Notes under the pieces: generated by a model
What the model was told of the DNA's origin: nothing
The model's database searches: none
The model's input: the letters and a program-made list of their open reading frames with translations, nothing else
Program-made: the position numbers and the translations under genes
From: a virus
Length of the DNA: 41,679 nucleotides
Direction: 5' to 3' (one strand)
IMG/VR virus record: IMGVR_UViG_3300025138_000093
Location: 1 to 41,679 of that record
Shown here: piece after piece, positions 21,294 to 36,484 of the stretch
Layout of the letters: each line of letters begins with the position of its first letter
How positions within the stretch are numbered: the first letter of the stretch is position 1

Positions 21294-21845
21294 TTAAAAC
21301 TGTTTTTTAGGTAAAAAATATTGATTATAATTAAAATATTGGTTTATAGGTGGAGTTACATTATATACATCATATGTTACATCTGGTATATTATAAAAAT
21401 TATTTGATCCTGTTATTGAATTCCACCATGTTGCTTTTCCACCTTCTTTCATAAATGATGATAAAGATGAAGAGAAATTATTCATATTTTTATCACCATA
21501 AGTATCCATAAATAAACCATCATAAGTACTTAAAGAATCCTTTATATCATACCAACTACCTTCTATTATAGTTACATTGGATTTATCTGCCGCCCATGCT
21601 TGAGCTTTTGGAATCATATCTGGATGGTTTTCTATAATAGTATGTGAATTTATAGTATGTGATTGTATATAATTTGCTGATATCCCCATTCCGAATCCTA
21701 TTTCAAGAATATCACCACCATTTTCACATACATAAGCTGCTGATGATGACATTAAGGGATCTTCCCAATCCATCATTACGTAATTAATATCTTCAAATAC
21801 TATATTAGATTCATTAAATACTAAACTTTGAGATATATATATCAT
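21294..21845 (-). CDS. Guanidinoacetate N-methyltransferase-like SAM methyltransferase
   Basis: The 183-residue protein is a Rossmann-fold SAM methyltransferase that matches the guanidinoacetate methyltransferase / arginine methyltransferase 2 group. The markers are VMMDWEDPLM at 23-32, motif I DILEIGFGMGIS at 45-56, the acidic end of strand 2 IIENHPDM at 70-77, and the catalytic-loop segment GLFMDTYGD at 110-118. Human GAMT has the equivalent GFGM, IIE and DTY positions but is longer (236). The substrate is not proven; candidates are a free guanidino compound, an arginine side chain on a fibre, or a small molecule. It sits between a collagen-like fibre and an adhesin-like gene. Confidence 0.8.
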   Translation of the reverse strand: MIYISQSLVFNESNIVFEDINYVMMDWEDPLMSSSAAYVCENGGDILEIGFGMGISANYIQSHTINSHTIIENHPDMIPKAQAWAADKSNVTIIEGSWYDIKDSLSTYDGLFMDTYGDKNMNNFSSSLSSFMKEGGKATWWNSITGSNNFYNIPDVTYDVYNVTPPINQYFNYNQYFLPKKQF

Positions 21846-21861: not shown

Positions 21862-24800
21862 TCAAAGTTCTACCCATGTCCTATCAGGAGAGAAATAAAT
21901 TTCATTTTCACCAACAGCATAACCAACAACTCTAGCCCAACCACTTGTTGGTACTGTATTTGTTATGTTACCAGGTGTAGCTGATAAGTAAAGTGGAGCA
22001 CCAATAGTAAATCCATGCGTTTCTTTATAAATAAACCCTGATAATAGCATACCATCTCCAGTTGAAGAGTTATCTAATGCATATGCTAGTAAACCAGTAG
22101 CTTGAGTAGCTGTATTATTTCTATCAGATAAAGCCCATGTTTCAGCTGAAGAATAATAATATACTTGACCTTGTGTTGTAACAGTACTTCCTCTTTTCAT
22201 TAAAATACCTGAGGAATTATTTGTAGAATTGAAACTTGAGTTAAAAGTTATACTAGAATATCTATTAAATAGCATTTCATTTCTACCAGTACCTTGACCA
22301 TCACTAGCTAGTGTTACATTAGAATTAGCAATTCCATTAGGAGCAGTTGAATTTAAAACTATAATAGCATTATCACCAGTTCCAGTTATATTAGCTGCTC
22401 CTACAGCACCTTGTGCTCCTGTAGTACCTGTATTTCCTTGATTACCTTGATTACCTTGAGTACCTGTATTTCCTTGGGCACCTGTATTTCCTTGAGCACC
22501 TGTAGTACCTGTAGCACCTTGAGCACCTACATTTCCTTGATTACCTTGAGCACCTGTATTTCCTGTATCACCTATATTTCCTTGAGCACCTTGATTTCCT
22601 GTATCACCTATATTTCCTTGATTTCCTTGAGCACCTGTAGCACCTTGAGCACCTACATTTCCTTGGTTACCCTGACCACCTGTATTACCTGCATTACCTT
22701 GTGCACCTGTAGCACCTTGAGCACCTACATTACCTTGATTACCTTGACCACCTGTATTACCTGCATTTCCTTGAGCTCCTGTAGCACCTTGGGCACCTGT
22801 ACCTCCTGTATTACCTGCATTACCTTGTGCACCTGTATTTCCTTGTGCTCCTGTAGCACCTTGAGCTCCTGTACCACCGGTACCACCTGTAGTACCTGTA
22901 GCTCCTTGGTTACCTTGATTACCTTGACCACCTGTATTACCTGCATTACCTTGGTTACCTTGAGCTCCTGTAGCACCTTGTGCTCCTGTTGTACCTGTAT
23001 TTCCTTGAGCACCTGTATTTCCTTGAGCACCTGTAGTACCAGTTGCACCCTGTGCACCTGTTGTACCTTGATTACCTTGTGCACCTGTATTTCCTTGATT
23101 ACCTTGAGCACCTGTAGCACCTTGAGCACCTACATTTCCTTGAGAACCTGTAGAACCTGTAGCACCTTGATTTCCTTGATTTCCTTGATTTCCTTGGTTT
23201 CCTTGATTACCTTGAGCACCTGTTGCACCCTGTGCACCTGTTGTACCTTGATTACCTTGTGCACCTGTATTTCCTTGATTACCCTGAGCACCTGTAGCAC
23301 CTTGAGCACCTACATTTCCTTGAGAACCTGTAGAACCTGTAGCACCTTGTGCACCTGTAGTTCCTGTATTACCTTGGTTTCCTTGGTTACCTTGAGCTCC
23401 TGTATTTCCTTGAGCACCTGTTGCACCTTGTGCACCTGTTGTACCTTGATTACCTTGATTACCTTGTGCACCTGTATTTCCTTGTGCACCTGTATTTCCT
23501 TGTGCACCTACATTTCCTTGAGCACCTGTAGAACCTGTAGCACCTTGTGCACCTGTAGTTCCTGTATTACCTTGGTTTCCTTGATTACCTTGAGCTCCTG
23601 TATTTCCTTGAGCACCTGTTGCACCTTGAGCACCTGTAGTACCTTGATTACCTTGATTACCTTGTGCACCTGTATTTCCTTGAGCACCTGTAGCACCTTG
23701 AGCACCTGTATCTCCTTTATCACCTACTAATGCAAAAGATACAAGAATTTCTTCATTAGAACTAAATGGAGAGGTTGCTGAAGAAGCTTGTTCATTTATA
23801 CTTAATTTCCACCATCCCCCATTATCGACTAAATCAGAAATTGAAAATAAAATAAATTGTGTTGAATCTAATTGATTAGAGATTCTCATATGTCCCTTTA
23901 CTGCTGATTGTGCAGCATCTATAGATTCTAGAAATTCTTCTATATCAGTTCCATCTTGAGTTGTTTGACTAATTGCTGAAAATATTGCAGAATTTTGATT
24001 TGTAGACGCTAATCTTAAAAATCCAGTACCAGGATTAGCCATAGTGGTACTAGTACCAAATTGATATTCAAAAGTAGCACCACCAAAATTACCATCTGTT
24101 CCTTGTGTACCTGTAGTACCTTGATTACCTTGATTTCCTTGGTTACCTTGAGCTCCTGTTGCACCTTGAGCACCTACATTTCCTTGTGCCCCTGTATTTC
24201 CTTGATTACCCTGTGCCCCTGTAGCACCTTGAGCACCTGTATTTCCTTGATTTCCTTGATTACCTTGAGCACCTGTAGTACCAGTTGCACCTTGTGCTCC
24301 TGTTGTACCTTGATTACCTTGTGCACCTGTATTTCCTTGATTTCCTTGAGCACCTGTAGCACCTTGAGCACCTACATTTCCTTGAGCACCTGTATTTCCT
24401 TGGTTACCTTGAGCTCCTGTAGCACCTTGTGCTCCTGTTGTACCTGTATTTCCTTGAGCACCTGTATTTCCTTGTGCTCCTGTAGCACCTTGTGCACCTG
24501 TTGTACCCTGATTACCTTGTGCACCAGTATTACCTATATTACCTTGAGCACCTGTAGCACCTTGAGCACCTGTATTACCTTGAGCTCCTGTATTTCCTTG
24601 AGCACCTGTAGCACCTTGAGCACCTACATTTCCTTGAGCACCTGTATTTCCTTGAGCACCTGTAGTACCTGTTGCACCTTGTGCACCTGTTGTACCTTGA
24701 TTACCTTGTGCCCCTGTATTTCCTTGATTACCTTGTGCTCCTGTAGCACCTTGAGCACCTACATTCCCTTGAGCACCTGTAGTACCTGTAGCACCTTGTG

Positions 24801-25761
24801 CACCTGTTGTACCTTGATTACCTTGTGCACCTGTATTACCTTGATTTCCTTGTGCACCAGTAGCACCTTGTGCACCTATATTTCCTTGAGCACCAGTAGC
24901 ACCTTGTGCTCCTGTGGTACCTTGGTTACCTTGATTACCCTGAGCACCTGTATTTCCTTGAGCACCTGTAGCACCTTTAGGAATTGTAAAATTAAATTCT
25001 GCTGCTGTAGCTGTTCCAGAATTATCTACTGCTGCTGCTGTGTTTGGTAGACCTGTTGTAGTAGTTCCAACTGCTACTGTAGGATTTACACCAACTGTAC
25101 CTTGATTTCCTTGTGCACCGGTATTACCTTGATTTCCTTGGGCACCAGTAGCACCTTGTGCACCTGTTGTACCTTGATTACCTTGAGCACCTGTATTTCC
25201 TTGAGCACCTGTAGTACCTGTAGCACCTTGTGCACCTGTTGTACCTTGATTACCTTGAGCACCTGTATTCCCTTGAGCACCTGTAGCGCCTTGGGCTCCT
25301 GTAGTACCTTGTAAGGATAAATTACTTCTATATTTTATACGTCCAACTGCATCTGTAACTAGTACTCGTGTTTCTGAAGTTCCTATAGGAGTATTACTTG
25401 CTGTAATTGCGTTTATAAATAAATTCCCTGTAGCTTGTACGTTACCTATTACATCTAGTTTTTCTCCGGGTGTTGACGTTCCTATGCCGACATATGCATC
25501 CTCTGCTTTTACAAATAATGTATTTGCATCTCCTTCACCTTCTACTCTAAAATTAACATTTTCACCATCCTCATTAAATACTGTTTGTGTGGGAGCATAT
25601 CGTATTACATTAGTATCTCCTATATTTATTTTTATTAGGTCACCAGCTTCAAACCCAAAGTAGGTATTTGAATCACCATTATGAATGATGTAATCGTCTA
25701 GGTATATGTTGGGTAAACTAGCGTCTGATCCGCTAATTATTACTTTTTTCCAATTTGGCAT
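21862..25761 (-). CDS. Giant collagen-like tail fibre 1
   Basis: The 1299-residue protein is a trimeric fibre built from Gly-x-y triplets of the [12 protein letters not shown] type, likely a rigid collagen-like shaft. Order of parts: a globular N-terminal region (1-149) beginning [14 protein letters not shown], a short collagen stretch (150-221), a linker with NFTIPKG (222-262), collagen (263-553), an inserted globular domain (553-682), collagen (682-1121), and a C-terminal domain (1122-1299). The N-terminal motif recurs in the 26266-28182 fibre and the inserted domain recurs in the 28257-31937 fibre. A long, structured leader lies upstream of the ATG. Confidence 0.88.
22398..25313 (-). repeat. 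Collagen-coding repeats of fibre 1
   Basis: Three tracts, about 22398-23716, 24100-24974 and 25097-25313, consist of near-identical 9- to 18-base units encoding Gly-Ala-Gln, Gly-Asn-Gln, Gly-Asn-Thr and Gly-Thr-Thr. Long blocks recur with few changes, for example around 23060-23130 and 23225-23345. The pattern implies expansion by slippage or recombination. Long open frames on the other strand here are only shadows of the repeat. Confidence 0.9.
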
Positions 25762-28256: not shown

Positions 28257-31200
28257 TTAATCTAATCCCATGTAAAAATTACTTGCAGAATATACTAACC
28301 CACCTGTTATAGGTGTTGGTAAAGTATTTAATGCTCCAAATTGTACTACTCCACTACTACTTACGCTAAATTTTTCATCTTGACCATTACCATCTTTAAT
28401 TTTAATAATAAAAGGATAAAGTGATGTTGTTTCAAAAGTATCAATTAATATACCTGTAGAAGCTGTAAATTGGGCTCCTATTATTGTATTACTTGAACTT
28501 ATATTTCCAGAACTAGTAAAATTACCAAAGATTTGTTGACTACCCGAAACAACTAAGGCATCTGAAGTATTAATATTAGCAGATCCACTACCTATTACAA
28601 CAAAATCTCTTAATTTTAATCTATTGGTATCAGCTTGAGCAAATAATGCCATAGTATTATCCTCATAGAAAATTTTAGTACTAATATTAGTTGCAGCTGC
28701 ATTTAATATTATTTGGTCATCTTCTATAGATATCGTTTCTAAACCATTGATAAAAATATCAATATTATCTTCTCTAAGTTTTAAAAAGTCATTACCAGTT
28801 GTTCCACTTTTAATTTCTAATGTGTCCGGAGCTATTATTTCAGAAGCAGAAGCATTAAATGTTAAACTTTGACTCAATATTAAATCACCACTTGAACTAA
28901 AATTAGATGCAGTTATGTGTGTAAAAGTTGCATTTTGTGCAAAAATATCTCCACTAGCACTAAAATTACCTGATGATGTAATATTACCTGATGAACCTGA
29001 CATTATAATAGAGTAAGGACCCATATAAATGTTTTCAGTTCTAATATTTCTAGCAGCCAAACTTGCTTTTGCTGGATTGTATTGAAGATCACTTAATGTA
29101 GAATCTCTTCCTAAAATTGCTGCTTGAGTTGTTGGATCTACATCAGTAATAAAATTTAAGGCATATTCAGTATTAGCATCATTGGTTTCTATTATAATAT
29201 TTGTATTAGTACCTTGTGTACCTGTTGTACCTTGTATACCTCTTATACCTTGTACGCCTTGAATTCCTTGTATACCTGTTATACCTTGAATACCTGTTAT
29301 TCCTTGAGTACCTTGAATTCCCTGTGTTCCTTGAATACCTTGAATTCCTTGAATACCTGTTATTCCTTGTATTCCTTGAGTACCTTGAATACCTTGAGTA
29401 CCTTGAATTCCTTGAATACCTTGAGTACCTTGAATACCTTGAATACCTGTTATTCCTTGTATTCCTTGAGTACCTTGAATACCTTGAGTACCTGTTATTC
29501 CTTGTATACCTTGTATACCTGTTATTCCTTGTATTCCTTGAGTACCTTGAATACCTTGAGTACCTTGAATACCTTGAATTCCTTGTATACCTGTTATTCC
29601 TTGTATACCTTGTGTACCTTGAATTCCTTGTATACCTGTTATACCTTGAATTCCTTGAGTACCTTGTATACCTATTATACCTTGTATTCCTTGAATACCT
29701 GTTATGCCTTGAATTCCTTGTATACCTTGTGTGCCTTGTATTCCTTGTATACCTGTTATACCTTGAATTCCTTGTATACCTGTTATACCTTGAATTCCTT
29801 GAATTCCTTGAGTACCTTGAATACCTTGTGTACCTTGAATACCCTGTATACCTGTTATACCTTGAATTCCTTGAATACCTTGAGTACCTTGAATACCTTG
29901 TGTACCTTGAATTCCTTGTATACCTGTTATACCTTGAATTCCTTGAGTACCTTGAATTCCTTGTGTACCTTGAATACCTTGAATACCTTGTATTCCTTGA
30001 ATACCTGTTATACCTTGAATTCCTTGAATTCCTTGAGTACCTTGAATACCTTGTGTACCTTGTATTCCTTGTATTCCTTGAATACCTGTTATACCTTGAA
30101 TTCCTTGAGTACCTTGAATACCTTGTGTACCTTGTATTCCTTGTATTCCTTGAATACCTGTTATACCTTGAATTCCTTGAGTACCTTGAATACCTTGTGT
30201 ACCTTGAATACCTTGAATACCTTGTATTCCTTGAATACCTGTTATACCTTGAATTCCTTGAATTCCTTGAGTACCTTGAATACCTTGTGTACCCTGAATA
30301 CCCTGTATACCTGTTATACCTTGTATACCTGTTATACCTTGAGTACCTTGAATACCTTGAGTACCTTGAATACCTTGTATACCTGTTATACCTTGTATAC
30401 CTGTTATACCTTGTATACCTTGTGTACCTTGAACACCTTGATCTCCTTTTTCACCTGTTGTTACAAAACAAACAAGTACATCTTCTAAATTTATAAAAGG
30501 ATCTGTTGCTGATGATGCTTGAGCTCCTATATCTATTGTCCACCACCCTGTATTGTCAGTTAAATCTGAAATTGAAAATAATAAAAATTGGGTTGCATCT
30601 TGTTTATTAGAAATTTTAACATGACCCTTAACTGCAGATGTATTTGCATCAATTGCTGATAAGAAATTTTGAATAGAAGTACCATCATCATCAGTAATAT
30701 CAATATAAATTTTATCAGAAGTAGATTGGGTTCCACCAATATTATTTAATCTTACTTTTCCAGTTCCTGGGTCTGCTGATATTGTTGAAGAATCAAATGT
30801 ATAATCAAAACAAGCTCCACCAAAATTACCTTCTATACCTTGAGTACCTTGAATACCTTGTATTCCTTGAGTACCTTGAGTACCTTGAATACCTTGAATA
30901 CCTTGTATTCCTTGAATTCCTTGAATACCTGTTATACCTTGAATACCTGTTATTCCTTGAGTACCTTGAATTCCCTGTATTCCTTGAATACCTTGAATTC
31001 CTTGAATACCTGTTATACCTTGAATTCCCTGTATTCCTTGAGTACCTTGTATTCCTTGAATACCTTGAATTCCTTGAATACCTGTTATACCTTGAATACC
31101 CTGAATACCTTGAGTACCTTGAATTCCTTGTGTGCCTTGAATTCCTTGTATACCTGTTATACCTTGAATACCCTGAATACCTTGAGTACCTTGAATTCCT

Positions 31201-31937
31201 TGTGTACCTTGAATTCCTTGTATACCTGTTATACCTTGAATACCCTGAATACCTTGAGTACCTTGAATTCCTTGTGTACCTTGAATACCCTGTATACCTG
31301 TTATACCTTGAGTACCCTGAATACCTTGAGTACCTTGAATTCCTTGTGTACCTTGAATACCCTGTATACCTGTTATACCTTGAGTACCTTGAATACCTTG
31401 AGTACCCTGAATACCTTGAATACCTTGAATACCTTGTATTCCTTGAGTACCTTGAATTCCTTGAATTCCTTGAATTCCTTGAGTACCTTGAATACCTTGT
31501 GTACCTTGTATTCCTTGTATTCCTTGAATACCTTGTATACCTGTTATACCTTGAGTACCTTGAGTACCTGCACCTGTAATTCCTTGAATTCCTTGAATAC
31601 CTTGAATACCTTGTATTCCTTGAGCACCTTGAGTACCTGCACCTGTAATTCCTTGAATTCCTTGAGTACCTTGAGTACCTTGAATGCCCTGTATACCTTG
31701 TATACCTTGTATACCTTGTGTACCCTGTATACCTGTTATTCCTTGTATACCTTGAATACCTTGTGTACCTATTATTCCTTGTATACCTTGAGTACCTTGA
31801 GTACCTTGTGTACCTCTAGGACCAGGATGGTTTACTTCAACTACTTTAGTATTACATACTTCTATATTTACTTCAGTACAATTAGTATTGATTTGTAGAG
31901 ATTTACAATTTTTCTTACCACAATTATTACAAGCCAT
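28257..31937 (-). CDS. Giant collagen-like tail fibre 2
   Basis: The 1226-residue fibre has a Cys-rich head (MACNNCGKKNC, then two more Cys within 30 residues) and collagen tracts at about 38-367 and 499-909, made of GIQGIQGTQG and GITGIQGIQ units. Between the tracts is a globular domain (368-498) that clearly matches the insert of fibre 1 (shared ISDLTDNTGWW and FGGA-type segments). The C-terminal 316 residues (910-1226) are a Ser/Asn-rich beta region with repeated SSGNI-, SSGDI-like units, typical of fibre tips. The triplets Ile-Gln and Thr-Gln differ from the Ala-Gln and Asn-Gln triplets of fibre 1. Confidence 0.88.
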   Translation of the reverse strand: MACNNCGKKNCKSLQINTNCTEVNIEVCNTKVVEVNHPGPRGTQGTQGTQGIQGIIGTQGIQGIQGITGIQGTQGIQGIQGIQGIQGTQGTQGIQGITGAGTQGAQGIQGIQGIQGIQGITGAGTQGTQGITGIQGIQGIQGIQGTQGIQGTQGIQGIQGIQGTQGIQGIQGIQGIQGTQGIQGTQGITGIQGIQGTQGIQGTQGIQGTQGITGIQGIQGTQGIQGTQGIQGIQGITGIQGIQGTQGIQGTQGIQGIQGITGIQGIQGTQGIQGTQGIQGIQGITGIQGIQGIQGIQGTQGIQGIQGITGIQGIQGIQGIQGIQGTQGITGIQGITGIQGIQGIQGIQGIQGTQGTQGIQGIQGTQGIEGNFGGACFDYTFDSSTISADPGTGKVRLNNIGGTQSTSDKIYIDITDDDGTSIQNFLSAIDANTSAVKGHVKISNKQDATQFLLFSISDLTDNTGWWTIDIGAQASSATDPFINLEDVLVCFVTTGEKGDQGVQGTQGIQGITGIQGITGIQGIQGTQGIQGTQGITGIQGITGIQGIQGTQGIQGTQGIQGIQGITGIQGIQGIQGIQGTQGIQGTQGIQGITGIQGIQGIQGTQGIQGTQGIQGITGIQGIQGIQGTQGIQGTQGIQGIQGITGIQGIQGIQGIQGTQGIQGTQGIQGITGIQGIQGTQGIQGTQGIQGIQGITGIQGIQGTQGIQGTQGIQGIQGITGIQGIQGITGIQGIQGTQGIQGIQGITGIQGIQGIIGIQGTQGIQGITGIQGIQGTQGIQGITGIQGIQGIQGTQGIQGTQGIQGITGIQGIQGITGTQGIQGTQGIQGITGIQGIQGTQGIQGIQGTQGIQGTQGIQGITGIQGIQGIQGTQGIQGTQGITGIQGITGIQGIQGVQGIRGIQGTTGTQGTNTNIIIETNDANTEYALNFITDVDPTTQAAILGRDSTLSDLQYNPAKASLAARNIRTENIYMGPYSIIMSGSSGNITSSGNFSASGDIFAQNATFTHITASNFSSSGDLILSQSLTFNASASEIIAPDTLEIKSGTTGNDFLKLREDNIDIFINGLETISIEDDQIILNAAATNISTKIFYEDNTMALFAQADTNRLKLRDFVVIGSGSANINTSDALVVSGSQQIFGNFTSSGNISSSNTIIGAQFTASTGILIDTFETTSLYPFIIKIKDGNGQDEKFSVSSSGVVQFGALNTLPTPITGGLVYSASNFYMGLD
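29210..31825 (-). repeat. Collagen-coding repeats of fibre 2
   Basis: Two tracts, about 29210-30445 and 30832-31825, are built of 9-base units encoding Gly-Ile-Gln, Gly-Thr-Gln and Gly-Ile-Thr. Longer blocks of about 54-90 bases recur almost exactly, for example near 30060-30180 and 31150-31390. The antisense open frames of more than 250 codons are produced by this periodicity and are not genes. Confidence 0.9.
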
Positions 31938-32416: not shown

Positions 32417-33082
32417 TTAATGATATCCATTCAATAATTCTAATAAATCATCAATAGCGTCATGTCTGTGATTATCTTGTAAAACACATTTGTGAACATA
32501 TTTAGAATTTATTAACTTAGCCATGTCATGATATGCTGAATAGTTTTTATCTTTTAAGTCCATTTGATATGAATCTCCACAAAATAACATTTTAGAATCT
32601 TTACCTAATCTACCTATAGCCATTGCTAGTTGTGAACGTGTTAAATTCTGGAATTCATCTACAATAACAATTGCATTATCAAATGTTCTTCCCCTAAAAT
32701 GAGCTAAAGAAACTAATTCAATTGTTTCATCTTTTTCCATTTTTTCTAATATCGTAGGTTTATTGTAAATTTTTCTCATATTAGAACGAATAGGTACTAA
32801 CCAGGGCTCCATTTTTTCTCTTTCTGACCCCGGAAGAAAACCATTATCTTCTGTAGATATAGTAGGTCTTGTAATTATTATTTTATTACATTGTCTTTTA
32901 AAAAATTGATCTAATGCAATTTGTACAGCTAATAGGGTTTTACCTGAGCCTGCTTTCCCAACTATAAAATTAAAGGGATGATTTAATATTTCTGTTTTTG
33001 CATTTTTTTGTTCTTCAGATAAACTTAAAGAAAATCTTACAGATCCTTTAGGTGGTGTTTTTGATATATTAGTTTTTGGCAT
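32417..33082 (-). CDS. phoH: PhoH-like ATPase
   Basis: This is a P-loop ATPase of the PhoH family, common in marine phages and linked to phosphate stress or RNA metabolism; its role in phages is unsettled. Walker A is GKAGSGKT at 42-49 and Walker B is NAIVIVDEFQN at 136-146 with Asp142 and Glu143. Two further family segments are IIITRPTIST near 68-77 and MLFCGDSYQMD near 165-175. The 221-residue length fits the single-domain form. It overlaps the phosphatidylserine decarboxylase-like gene by 14 bases, so the two are translated from one mRNA. Confidence 0.92.
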   Translation of the reverse strand: MPKTNISKTPPKGSVRFSLSLSEEQKNAKTEILNHPFNFIVGKAGSGKTLLAVQIALDQFFKRQCNKIIITRPTISTEDNGFLPGSEREKMEPWLVPIRSNMRKIYNKPTILEKMEKDETIELVSLAHFRGRTFDNAIVIVDEFQNLTRSQLAMAIGRLGKDSKMLFCGDSYQMDLKDKNYSAYHDMAKLINSKYVHKCVLQDNHRHDAIDDLLELLNGYH

Positions 33083-33800
33083 AATTTATTTTAATTAATT
33101 TGTCTAATCCCGCATTTATATGCATTGTTTCTTTTAATAATAACTCAAATTGGTATCTATTATCTATAGGTAAAACTAAATCTACTTGAGATCCCCATCT
33201 TATTAAACTAAATCTTTCATTTTGAGTACATAAATCTCCTTGTTGTTTAAAAGGTGCTATAACATTTACATCTTCATCTGCAATTTGTACTATATAATAA
33301 GTATAATCTAAAGATGAATTATAAATGGTATTAAGTACTCTTTCATTATATTTTAAATAATCCATATTATTAGGATTAATTACATTATTTAGAATATCTT
33401 TTTCTACAGCTAACATAGGTTTATTAGTAGATTCAATAGGTTCTAAACGATTATATTTAATGGTACCACTATATGGAATTCTATTTATATGTACATCATA
33501 AAACGACATAAAAATTCCTATAACTAATGAAGGTTTATTATAATCTTTATCACCCATTACATCTTGTAATGTATAATTTTTACCTTTTATTTCAATAACT
33601 TGTTCACAACATGGTGTTCCGGGTAGTACTACTTTTTGGTATAGTATAGTTCCATCAGCAGGACTATAAAAATAATTATTATCTATATAAGTAGGTCTTA
33701 ATGGATCTCTAAAGAAAAATGTATTACTAAGTTCACCAATAGAAAATTTTTGTAATTCAGCAACTTCTCCATTTAACCAATCTTCTAACTCTTCAGCCAT
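33069..33800 (-). CDS. Phosphatidylserine decarboxylase-like enzyme, pyruvoyl type
   Basis: The 243-residue protein matches small bacterial phosphatidylserine decarboxylases, which convert phosphatidylserine to phosphatidylethanolamine using a pyruvoyl group made by self-cleavage. Markers in order: FFRDP at 29-33, YSPADGTI at 45-52 with Asp49, SFYDVHINRIPYSG at 99-112 with His104, and the cleavage region RFSLIRWGSQVDLVLP at 196-211, where Gly203-Ser204 corresponds to the GS of the LGST motif. The second His of the E. coli enzyme is Arg here, as in many short-form enzymes (DVHVNR type). There is no membrane segment. Start and stop overlap its neighbours (TAATG with the amidinotransferase gene, 14 bases with phoH). 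Confidence 0.88.
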   Translation of the reverse strand: MAEELEDWLNGEVAELQKFSIGELSNTFFFRDPLRPTYIDNNYFYSPADGTILYQKVVLPGTPCCEQVIEIKGKNYTLQDVMGDKDYNKPSLVIGIFMSFYDVHINRIPYSGTIKYNRLEPIESTNKPMLAVEKDILNNVINPNNMDYLKYNERVLNTIYNSSLDYTYYIVQIADEDVNVIAPFKQQGDLCTQNERFSLIRWGSQVDLVLPIDNRYQFELLLKETMHINAGLDKLIKINYAKN

Positions 33801-34714
33801 TAAAGAAGTGTTTTAAAATGATCTACTCTATTTAAGTGCATTACCATACAACTTAACATGGCTCCAGATTTCATATATTCTGATAGGTTAAAAATTATAG
33901 GTTCCATACCTTCATTAGAACATATTTTTTCTAATGATTCAATTTTATGTTTTTCACCTTCATAAAATTCATCTCCTCTTTTCATTTCTGATATGTTAGA
34001 GGCACATAAAACCATATTTCCTAATCTAACTGAATTTGCTATCCCATAAGTTGAATCATCTGCATTTACATCAATTATATTTGTATAGCGTGATATATGT
34101 GATAATTCTTTTTGGTCATATAACTCAGTACAAACTATTGAGTTATTATTATTTAACGGGAATATACTGCAGTCTAGGTGATACATATATTCGTCGGTCA
34201 TACGAACTTTAATAATTTCCATATTAAAATTTTCTTCCATCCATTCATAAGTTTTAATGTCAGATCTTATACCATACCCCCCAATATAAACATTATCTTT
34301 TAAATATTTTATATCAGCTTCACCCTCCCATTTATGGGGTGATATATGAGTTTTATAACCCATTTGGTTGAAAAATTTTTCACCAACATATTCTTCACCT
34401 TGTCTTGGAAGGGATGTATAATTAGATAATAATATATGATTTTCTTCACAAATGTGGGGTAAATGTAATCCTAAATTAGCAACATATACTAAATCTTGAA
34501 AATTTCCTTCAGCTGGGAGAAGATGTACTAACGATTGGCCTGCCATAAAGTTATAAAGATCCATAAATTGTTTGTAAGCTTTCGGACGATTTATAGATAA
34601 TTCTTCTTTTGACATTTCTTTCATCCAAACATTATTAGGATCATTTGTTGAAAATGTAAAAGGGAAATTCATTAAATAACTTTGAATAGGTAACTGTGAT
34701 GGTGTTTCTTTCAT
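33800..34714 (-). CDS. COG1834-type amidinotransferase / dimethylarginine hydrolase-like enzyme
   Basis: The 304-residue protein belongs to the pentein superfamily of guanidine-modifying enzymes, which use a Cys nucleophile and a His base to break a C-N bond of a guanidino group. Matches: WEGEADIKYL at 129-138 (the substrate-binding E-x-x-x-D), YIGGYGIRSD at 143-152, YHLDCSIFPL at 168-177 with His169 and Asp171, and LSEYMKSGAMLSCMVMHL at 277-294 with Cys289. The family includes dimethylarginine dimethylaminohydrolases and amidinotransferases, and the sequence alone does not tell hydrolase from transferase. It starts the three-gene cassette after gp23's terminator, with its own TATTTATA element upstream. 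Confidence 0.85.
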   Translation of the reverse strand: MKETPSQLPIQSYLMNFPFTFSTNDPNNVWMKEMSKEELSINRPKAYKQFMDLYNFMAGQSLVHLLPAEGNFQDLVYVANLGLHLPHICEENHILLSNYTSLPRQGEEYVGEKFFNQMGYKTHISPHKWEGEADIKYLKDNVYIGGYGIRSDIKTYEWMEENFNMEIIKVRMTDEYMYHLDCSIFPLNNNNSIVCTELYDQKELSHISRYTNIIDVNADDSTYGIANSVRLGNMVLCASNISEMKRGDEFYEGEKHKIESLEKICSNEGMEPIIFNLSEYMKSGAMLSCMVMHLNRVDHFKTLL

Positions 34715-34739: not shown

Positions 34740-34747
34740 TATAAATA
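34740..34747 (-). promoter_or_regulatory. Candidate promoter element for the metabolic cassette
   Basis: The minus strand reads TTGTATATTTATACCACGAA. The core is 25 bases before the amidinotransferase-like ATG and 38 bases past the gp23 terminator, so the three-gene cassette can be expressed on its own. The downstream A-rich block of the consensus is weaker here. Confidence 0.38.
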
Positions 34748-34785
34748 TACAATTAATTTATTTAATAAACAAATAATAATAAAAA

Positions 34786-34807
34786 AAGCCCCGCTAATGC
34801 GGGGCTT
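34786..34807 (-). terminator. Intrinsic terminator after major capsid gene
   Basis: The minus strand reads AAGCCCCGC-ATTA-GCGGGGCTT followed by a T-run. The stem is 9 bp with seven G-C pairs, in strong contrast with the A+T-rich surroundings. It lies 24 bases after the gp23 stop and would separate the highly expressed capsid gene from the cassette downstream. Confidence 0.93.
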
Positions 34808-34831
34808 CTTTAAATATATATTAGACTACTA

Positions 34832-36484
34832 TTAAATAGTTTCTAATCCAGATACTTTGATTAAACCATAGTATTCTGGTCTTAACATTTTCTTAGCGTA
34901 TCTAGTCAATAGACCTTTACGTGGAGTAAATGTTTCTGGATCATATACCATTGGAGTCATAATTAATGGAATGTATGGAGCAAATACTGCACCAGCTTCT
35001 AAAAATTGTGTTCCTCTGTATCCAAGTAAGATTTGATTTTCAGTCATATAAGGATTCTTATATACTTGATATCTACCATTTAACTGACCAACTTTCTGTA
35101 CACCAAATGCGTAAGAACCTTTAGCAGCATCACCATCAGAAGTAGAAGCAAATCCTGGGATTGATTCTAATACAGTTCCAATTGTTGGAGAACAAACTAG
35201 GAAACTAGCACCTCCTCTAAGAGTTTTCTGGTGAATAATGTTAGATATCTTTTGGATTTTAGTTCCTAAAGTTTGGAACCACTGTCCTTGAGAATTATAG
35301 AAACCTAAATCACTTGCAGTACCTGCAGCATCTTGAGCAATTGCTTGATTGTTCTTAGCTGACCAAGTTTCTGTTGCTGCATTAGCAGACTCAATTAACA
35401 TATCAAGAATTTCTAAGTCAATTTCTAATGAAATGTACTCACTCATAATTGAAGTTAATTCAGCTTCTGCATCTAAAGAATGATAAGCATTTAAATCTTG
35501 AGCAAACTCAGGAGTCCAAACAGCTTTTAATTTTTTAGTTTTAGCAACAATAGCTTCACTTGACATTTGAACATTAACTTGAGGAATAGTAATTGGCGTA
35601 TTCTCATTATTCAATGCATTGTTACCATCTTCAAAATCACCTCTATCAGAATCAGTTGTTTGTAAAGATTGAGTAACAGAACCTGCAAATGTTGTTTGTC
35701 CAGCTCCTGCTGCTCCAATACTTGCAGCTGTAACTAAGAAGTCTAAATCAGTACCTCTAACTTTAGTATAAGCTGGTAAAGTAATATCAACACCAGCAGC
35801 TGTAGTTAATCTAAATGATCTAACAGCTTCTGTATCATAATTAGGATCTAGTGTATTTAAAGCAATTGAAACTACTCTATAAGCATTAGTAGCACTAGCA
35901 GCTGATAATGAAGAAGATAATGCTCCATCATAATTAGATGAACTCCAAGATGCAGTTATTACATTTGCTGCATTAGCTGCTGCAACTGAAGCAGTTAAAT
36001 TAGTAGAGTATGCAAATCTACCAGCACCATAAAGACCACCTGTGTTTGTATTACCAAACGTACCAGCTGGGTCTGTAGTACCATACATAGAATTTCCAGC
36101 AGTAAAGGCACCTTTTGTAGTTCCATATTGGAAGTCTAAGTAAAATACTAGACCTGAAGGAAGGTTCATTGGTTGAACCGAAACAAATTCTTTTGCTGCG
36201 ATTTGACCAAATACCTTTCTAACTAATGGAAGAGCAACGCCCGCCCACTGTGCTCCTGTTCCAGGAGTAAAATTACCAGCAGCTGAACCTCCACCTGTAT
36301 TGGAAGTTTCAGTTACTAATTGTTTAGCCTGATTTTCAAGTAACATTGACATATTGTTACTATCATTATCAGATAAACCTTCAAGTAAGCCTGTTTTAGC
36401 CCACTTGGACGATAATCTTGCAGCATCACTTTGTAGTGATTTGTAAGGATTAGCGCTTTCTAATAAGTTGTTTAATTGTGACAT
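34832..36484 (-). CDS. 23: Major capsid protein gp23
   Basis: The protein forms the hexamers of the head shell. The 550-residue length suits T4 gp23 (521). The N-terminus has the conserved set TGAQWAGVALPLVRKVFG (76-93) and FVSVQPMNLPSGLVFYLDF (about 99-117), and the C-terminus contains YQVYKNPYMTENQILLGYRG and PLIMTPMVYDPETFTPRKG, all hallmark segments. Residues 1-65 are a likely pro-region removed by gp21; Leu-Leu-Glu at 48-50 fits the (L/I)xE consensus as one candidate site. The gene follows gp22 by 36 bases and is followed by a strong terminator. Confidence 0.97.
   Translation of the reverse strand: MSQLNNLLESANPYKSLQSDAARLSSKWAKTGLLEGLSDNDSNNMSMLLENQAKQLVTETSNTGGGSAAGNFTPGTGAQWAGVALPLVRKVFGQIAAKEFVSVQPMNLPSGLVFYLDFQYGTTKGAFTAGNSMYGTTDPAGTFGNTNTGGLYGAGRFAYSTNLTASVAAANAANVITASWSSSNYDGALSSSLSAASATNAYRVVSIALNTLDPNYDTEAVRSFRLTTAAGVDITLPAYTKVRGTDLDFLVTAASIGAAGAGQTTFAGSVTQSLQTTDSDRGDFEDGNNALNNENTPITIPQVNVQMSSEAIVAKTKKLKAVWTPEFAQDLNAYHSLDAEAELTSIMSEYISLEIDLEILDMLIESANAATETWSAKNNQAIAQDAAGTASDLGFYNSQGQWFQTLGTKIQKISNIIHQKTLRGGASFLVCSPTIGTVLESIPGFASTSDGDAAKGSYAFGVQKVGQLNGRYQVYKNPYMTENQILLGYRGTQFLEAGAVFAPYIPLIMTPMVYDPETFTPRKGLLTRYAKKMLRPEYYGLIKVSGLETI

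Follow-up and report, generated by a model that had tools for sequence, protein, structure and literature searches.

A PSD-superfamily decarboxylase gene and its arginine-dihydrolase-like partner in T4-like phages: a possible arginine-to-putrescine module

The window analysed here is the whole of the IMG/VR record IMGVR_UViG_3300025138_000093 (41,679 bases). It carries genes typical of T4-like phages (gp23, gp21 protease, a gp32-like gene, and phage lysozyme). The locus of interest lies on the minus strand and is ordered, in the direction of transcription, gp23, terminator (34811-34782), TATTTATA motif (34747-34740), arginine enzyme, decarboxylase, and phoH:

34832..36484, minus strand: gene of the major capsid protein gp23 (T4-like), upstream neighbour
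34782..34811, minus strand: intrinsic terminator after gp23, with a 13-pair GC-rich stem and a T run
34740..34747, minus strand: promoter-like motif TATTTATA, 33 nt upstream of the arginine enzyme gene
33800..34714, minus strand: arginine-dihydrolase-like (ArgZ/AgrE type) gene, 304 aa
33798..33802, minus strand: TAATG, overlap of the arginine enzyme stop and the decarboxylase start, one shared base
33069..33800, minus strand: PSD-superfamily pyruvoyl decarboxylase gene, ATG to TAA, 243 aa
32417..33082, minus strand: phoH-like ATPase gene, downstream neighbour, 14-nt overlap with the decarboxylase gene

An earlier note on this DNA had placed the decarboxylase in a structural-gene neighbourhood, and the nearby major capsid gene and phoH bear this out. 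The TAATG overlap is also present in 89 of about 106 distinct relatives. The TATTTATA motif lies 5′ of the arginine enzyme gene in 51/106 relatives and 5′ of the decarboxylase gene in 1; in the window, it was not found directly before the decarboxylase gene, which suggests that the arginine enzyme and the decarboxylase are probably encoded on a single transcript. The predicted terminator sets gp23 apart from this unit. The note had also proposed translational coupling of the decarboxylase gene to phoH and to the upstream gene: the overlaps (14 nt and 1 nt) are real, and the coupling itself is predicted from them. The phoH-like gene is outside the inferred arginine-to-putrescine pathway discussed below.

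The host is likely a marine Bacteroidota, judging from contig binning: the closest cellular match, and the sole find of one genome scan, is a contig of phage origin that was binned with a Flavobacteriales MAG. Elsewhere on the minus strand of the window, a guanidinoacetate-N-methyltransferase-like protein (21294-21845; E 7e-15 versus solved GAMT) is encoded next to tail-fibre-like genes, and two very long collagen-like proteins with GxQGxxG and GIQGTQG repeats (21862-25761 and 28257-31937) are probably tail fibres.

The short-form decarboxylase motifs FFRDP, SPADG, DVHINRIP, and IRWGSQVDL are all found in the 243-aa product, with Gly203-Ser204 as the cleavage pair, in agreement with the earlier note. 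The HMM search and the structural model that the note had suggested as checks point in the same direction. The only Pfam match is PF02666 (E=3.3e-27; 95.9 bits versus a cut-off of 22), and hhalign against bacterial short forms gave a probability of 99.5%. The AlphaFold model has a mean pLDDT of 83 and a pTM of 0.86, with low confidence in region 127-146, and its top three Foldseek matches among viral models are giant-virus phosphatidylserine decarboxylases (PSDs; probability 1.00). Among the 50 best matches listed from the PDB there was no PSD, including that of E. coli, perhaps because the solved PSD chains are cleaved. D49, H104, Gly203, and Ser204 are invariant in 118/118 distinct phage relatives, and D49 and H104 complete a D-H-S processing triad with Ser204. 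Indeed, the Ser-containing cleavage site is intact, as the note had suspected, and a degenerate or inactive enzyme is unlikely given this invariance. Judged by its sequence, the protein is a PSD-superfamily member with an intact pyruvoyl-forming site. The narrower identification as phosphatidylserine decarboxylase did not hold to the same extent: superfamily and pyruvoyl-forming site stand, but all 14 NCBIfam models for PSD or archaetidylserine decarboxylase scored below their cut-offs (best, 85 versus 183 bits). In PHROGs, the protein falls in phrog_12670, there of unknown function. In the phylogeny, a long stem separates the bacterial short forms from the phage decarboxylases, which group in a single clade (support 96), and recent acquisition from a host was rejected on these grounds. 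In one relative (PV052266.1, L045:5001-5780), the decarboxylase is annotated as two ORFs, probably owing to a frameshift by sequencing error.

The phage decarboxylase resembles bacterial short-form PSDs (PF02666; PRK05305 subgroups, NCBIfam) in fold family, in the motifs FFRDPxR, PADG, and DVHxNRxP, and in the Gly-Ser and Asp-His-Ser residues. With E. coli PSD (7CNW, 6L06), it has in common a KGxNYxL segment and D49, D102, H104, G203, and S204 (D90, D142, H144, G253, and S254 in E. coli). Unlike the short forms, it lacks the N-terminal membrane hairpin, has lost the Arg-Arg of the ARRI motif, has an acidic stretch at positions 175-177 in place of Gly-hydrophobic, and carries an insert around 122-146; unlike the E. 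coli enzyme, it has no helices H1-H3, and F63 and T204 are replaced by S25 and E176.

A strongly hydrophobic segment precedes FFRDP in 27/27 bacterial short forms (19-aa hydropathy maximum, 2.0 to 3.05), whereas the phage decarboxylases have no hydrophobic N-terminal segment (19-aa maximum, 0.27 here and -0.5 to 0.5 across relatives). In E. coli PSD, membrane binding is a task of the N-terminal helices, which also promote cleavage; V37, F41, F63, F67, L252, L13, L18, and T204 touch the acyl chains, and the enzyme does not act on substrates that lack such chains (PMC7952604). By alignment, F63 corresponds to S25 in the phage protein (Ser in 113/118), and the A203-T204-I205 surface corresponds to D175-E176-D177, with E176 at the position of T204. 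L13 and L18 are missing and L252 is replaced by Trp, as read from the alignment only. Positions 175-177, which were placed by sequence alignment and not from a ligand structure, hold two to three acidic residues in 26/26 phage sequences and none in 31 cellular sequences (27 short and 4 long forms). The phage family also shows no variation at E133, N126, Y148, and Q193. Some lipid-side features are retained in the sequence, i.e., F67 and F97, both as in bacterial short forms. The phosphate contacts S166 and Y137 of the E. coli enzyme are uninformative, since S166 is absent from the bacterial short forms as well and Y137 is replaced by Phe there. Taken at the level of sequence, the substrate-side changes would suit a small, positively charged substrate more than a phospholipid.

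The 304-aa product of the upstream gene matched no Pfam family above cut-off and belongs to phrog_12759, which PHROGs lists as of unknown function. NCBIfam returned arginine dihydrolase and dimethylargininase, both below cut-off (86 of 450 bits for the equivalog-domain model NF052232). A profile of the protein retrieved only ArgZ and AgrE chains from the PDB sequences. Its structure model (pTM 0.89) matched AgrE/ArgZ at E 7e-20 in a Foldseek search of the PDB, followed by DDAH at 1e-11 and by glycine amidinotransferase and agmatine deiminase at about 2e-9 to 3e-9. The protein has the same fold and the same conserved Asn and Cys residues as cyanobacterial ArgZ/AgrE: N28, N80, and C289, which correspond to N22, N71, and C264 of ArgZ, are invariant in 109/109 phage sequences. 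PDB titles of ArgZ structures list N71S and C264S mutants, and the residue roles assumed here for ArgZ, with C264 as the catalytic cysteine, follow in part from these titles. Unlike ArgZ/AgrE, to which it is about 22% identical, the phage protein lacks the ornithine cyclodeaminase domain, and its expected product, judged by the likeness to ArgZ/AgrE without this second domain, is ornithine. The earlier note had described an amidinotransferase-like neighbour; with AgrE/ArgZ as the best matches of its guanidine-modifying fold, the enzyme is better described as arginine-dihydrolase-like. Suitable annotations for phrog_12670 and phrog_12759 are, respectively, PSD-fold pyruvoyl decarboxylase and arginine-dihydrolase-like enzyme.

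The two genes occur together far beyond the window. The decarboxylase, which the note had called rare in phages, was indeed found in only 45 of 50,697 phage records (39 Campylobacter, 6 Bacteroides). The arginine enzyme was found in 47 of the 50,697, including all 45 with the decarboxylase; the two extra records are a distant Xanthomonas phage DDAH and a partial match in one Campylobacter phage record. The Campylobacter Fletchervirus and Bacteroides DAC phage homologues are true relatives of both genes (decarboxylase, 36-42% identical). The pair is adjacent in the Bacteroides phages and tens of kb apart in the Campylobacter phages, for example at 29 kb and 122.5 kb of the 132.7-kb genome of phage CPX; in Fletchervirus, the unlinked genes are annotated separately as phosphatidylserine decarboxylase and amidinotransferase. 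When IMG/VR was searched for the decarboxylase first, the arginine enzyme was adjacent at 112/117 and 71/74 loci, and the other loci were accounted for by contig ends, GIY-YIG endonuclease-like insertions (L030, L175), and a local rearrangement (L174). The insertions are GIY-YIG homing endonuclease-like ORFs, identified by eye, between the arginine enzyme and the decarboxylase (L030:1904-2660 and L175:9457-9994). Starting from the arginine enzyme, 147/152 loci had the decarboxylase adjacent, 2 had it close by, and 3 ended within 85 nt. Hence, in both search directions, the pair was adjacent or close by at every evaluable viral locus. These counts are not independent, as the locus sets overlap in contigs and the phages represent few lineages (45 records are not 45 events). 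Furthermore, the distance matrices of the two proteins correlate (r=0.91; 0/500 permutations as high). The two genes have stayed together after separation, interruption, or inversion, and we consider it very likely that the decarboxylase is functionally coupled to the arginine enzyme, whatever its substrate. At the sensitivity used, a bacterial-type PSD turned up in a single phage record, MT836180.1 (8058-8579), an unannotated 15.6-kb sequence from human faeces that is possibly a bacterial contig.

Our preferred model is a two-gene arginine-to-putrescine module of T4-like phages that employs a PSD-fold pyruvoyl decarboxylase, and we regard the case for it as evenly balanced. The upstream arginine-dihydrolase-like enzyme would convert arginine to ornithine, ammonia, and CO2. 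The PSD-fold proenzyme would cut itself at Gly203-Ser204 to form the pyruvoyl group and, having given up membrane attachment and part of the acyl-chain surface, would act as a soluble enzyme that most likely converts ornithine to putrescine. This activity is inferred from the partner gene and the residue changes only; the acidic cluster D175-E176-D177 and the invariant E133 may help to hold the basic side chain. Putrescine could then feed spermidine synthesis of the host and help to neutralise the phage DNA. A complete polyamine pathway of the phage was rejected: neither spermidine synthase, AdoMetDC, nor deoxyhypusine/homospermidine synthase was found in seven relatives (five long marine contigs, CPX, and DAC19), and therefore, the phage would have to use putrescine as such or draw on enzymes of the host. 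In two culturable host species, B. thetaiotaomicron and C. jejuni, putrescine synthesis is described as proceeding via agmatine/N-carbamoylputrescine, and the putrescine step of B. thetaiotaomicron is inhibited by agmatine and spermidine (PMC10135574). If the model is true, the phage ornithine route would bypass this feedback-controlled host route.

According to the main competing explanation, the protein is a genuine phosphatidylserine decarboxylase by which phosphatidylethanolamine increases in the course of infection, the arginine enzyme being a separate nitrogen scavenger linked by chance. Membership in PF02666, the intact D-H-S site, and the retention of F67 and other family positions speak for it, as do the deposited annotation of the Campylobacter phage genes and the annotation of the closest folds, the giant-virus proteins, as phosphatidylserine decarboxylases. 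However, the missing membrane segment, the altered acyl contacts, and the acidic cluster are difficult to reconcile with a phospholipid substrate, and the protein stays below every NCBIfam equivalog cut-off. Since the E. coli enzyme does not act on acyl-free substrates, and both its cleavage and its attachment to the membrane involve the N-terminal helices, activity kept without such helices would be unusual (PMC7952604). Seven long or complete relatives yielded no gene for a PssA-type CDP-alcohol phosphatidyltransferase, and a phage phospholipid pathway was rejected on this basis. Moreover, a PSD of their own is encoded by 118/118 Bacteroidota genomes sampled, and the obligate partner of the phage gene degrades arginine and is not a lipid gene, a pairing that this explanation leaves unaccounted for. 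The shift of the host membrane towards phosphatidylethanolamine that the earlier note had envisaged thus finds no backing in membrane segment, acyl contacts, or gene content, and a role in membrane lipids, which we consider unlikely, is a less likely reading than the arginine-to-putrescine module. Some of the Bacteroidota genomes (G070, G011, G094, and others) encode a second, longer PF02666 protein, in frames of about 250 to 600 aa.

The other alternatives leave the gene pair in amine or guanidine metabolism. In the reverse order, the decarboxylase would convert arginine to agmatine and the guanidine-modifying enzyme agmatine to putrescine; this would explain the pairing equally, and arginine decarboxylases do exist among the phage AdoMetDC-fold enzymes (PMC9992855). 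The nearest relatives of the upstream enzyme are arginine dihydrolases, though, with agmatine deiminase far weaker, and its upstream position fits, without proving, that it acts first, so that we hold the reverse order to be quite improbable. It is imaginable that the two enzymes provide the amine with which phage DNA is hypermodified or that the decarboxylase acts on a DNA-attached amino acid: Campylobacter phages of the broad group carry modified DNA (PMC6884629), and serine O-linked to a base would look like the head group of phosphatidylserine. Yet the modification reported for Campylobacter phages is 7-deazaguanine (dADG), for which, as far as is known, neither enzyme is needed, and we see very little chance for this proposal. 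Hardly credible is creatine-like or other guanidine chemistry, in which the upstream protein would act as amidinotransferase together with the guanidinoacetate-methyltransferase-like gene at 21294-21845. The latter does match guanidinoacetate N-methyltransferase structures (E 7e-15), but it occurs in only 3/7 relatives tested and in neither cultured lineage; a creatine-type pathway was rejected because this gene is not conserved alongside the pair. Furthermore, the arginine enzyme fits dihydrolases far better than glycine amidinotransferase, and the decarboxylase would be left unexplained.

Pyruvoyl enzymes offer two precedents for the arginine-to-putrescine module. Phage-encoded ornithine/arginine decarboxylases of the AdoMetDC fold were shown to make polyamine precursors (PMC9992855, PMC10407285); they resemble the enzyme described here in being phage-encoded and self-processing (here predicted) but differ from it in fold and, at 117-122 aa, are about half as long. 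No match to PF02675 (AdoMet_dc) was obtained in any of seven relatives or in the window decarboxylase. No arginase was recorded from phages in the survey of PMC9992855, whose text is silent on PSD-like enzymes and on phages of Campylobacter or Bacteroides. The fungal tryptophan decarboxylase PsiD is a PSD-like pyruvoyl enzyme turned free amino-acid decarboxylase and, therefore, a precedent for the substrate change (PMC6121855), although it differs from the phage enzyme in its fungal origin, its substrate, and its GGSS motif. As PSD-annotated Campylobacter phage genes are already deposited, the novelty is confined to the pairing and the changed substrate side. With no more than even confidence, we propose that in T4-like phages of Campylobacter and Bacteroidota the PSD fold has become a soluble pyruvoyl ornithine (or arginine) decarboxylase that forms, with a phage arginine dihydrolase, a two-step route from arginine to putrescine, so far masked by the lipid-enzyme annotation. 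If this is true, the "membrane-lipid" gene of Campylobacter phages encodes one of the two steps of a route to polyamines, the PSD fold must be counted among the known folds of ornithine decarboxylases, and the pair allows one to ask directly whether host arginine is spent by phages to gain capacity for DNA packaging or translation. A global-ocean survey of viral metabolic genes treats viral psd as phospholipid synthesis (PMC11360552); if the proposal is true, PF02666 matches in viral metagenomes should not be equated with lipid metabolism.

The promoter-like motif upstream of the arginine enzyme gene recurs in the window. A AATATTTATAAYAAAAT-like motif lies 17-73 nt upstream of 10/33 gene starts, all on the minus strand (10798, 13434, 15074, 17429, 20531, 25761, 28182, 32381, 34714, and 41014), and 10/16 coding-strand copies of TATTTATA fall within 6% of the window. 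The TATTTATA/AATATTTATAAYAAAAT-like motif is a candidate late promoter of this T4-like phage group.
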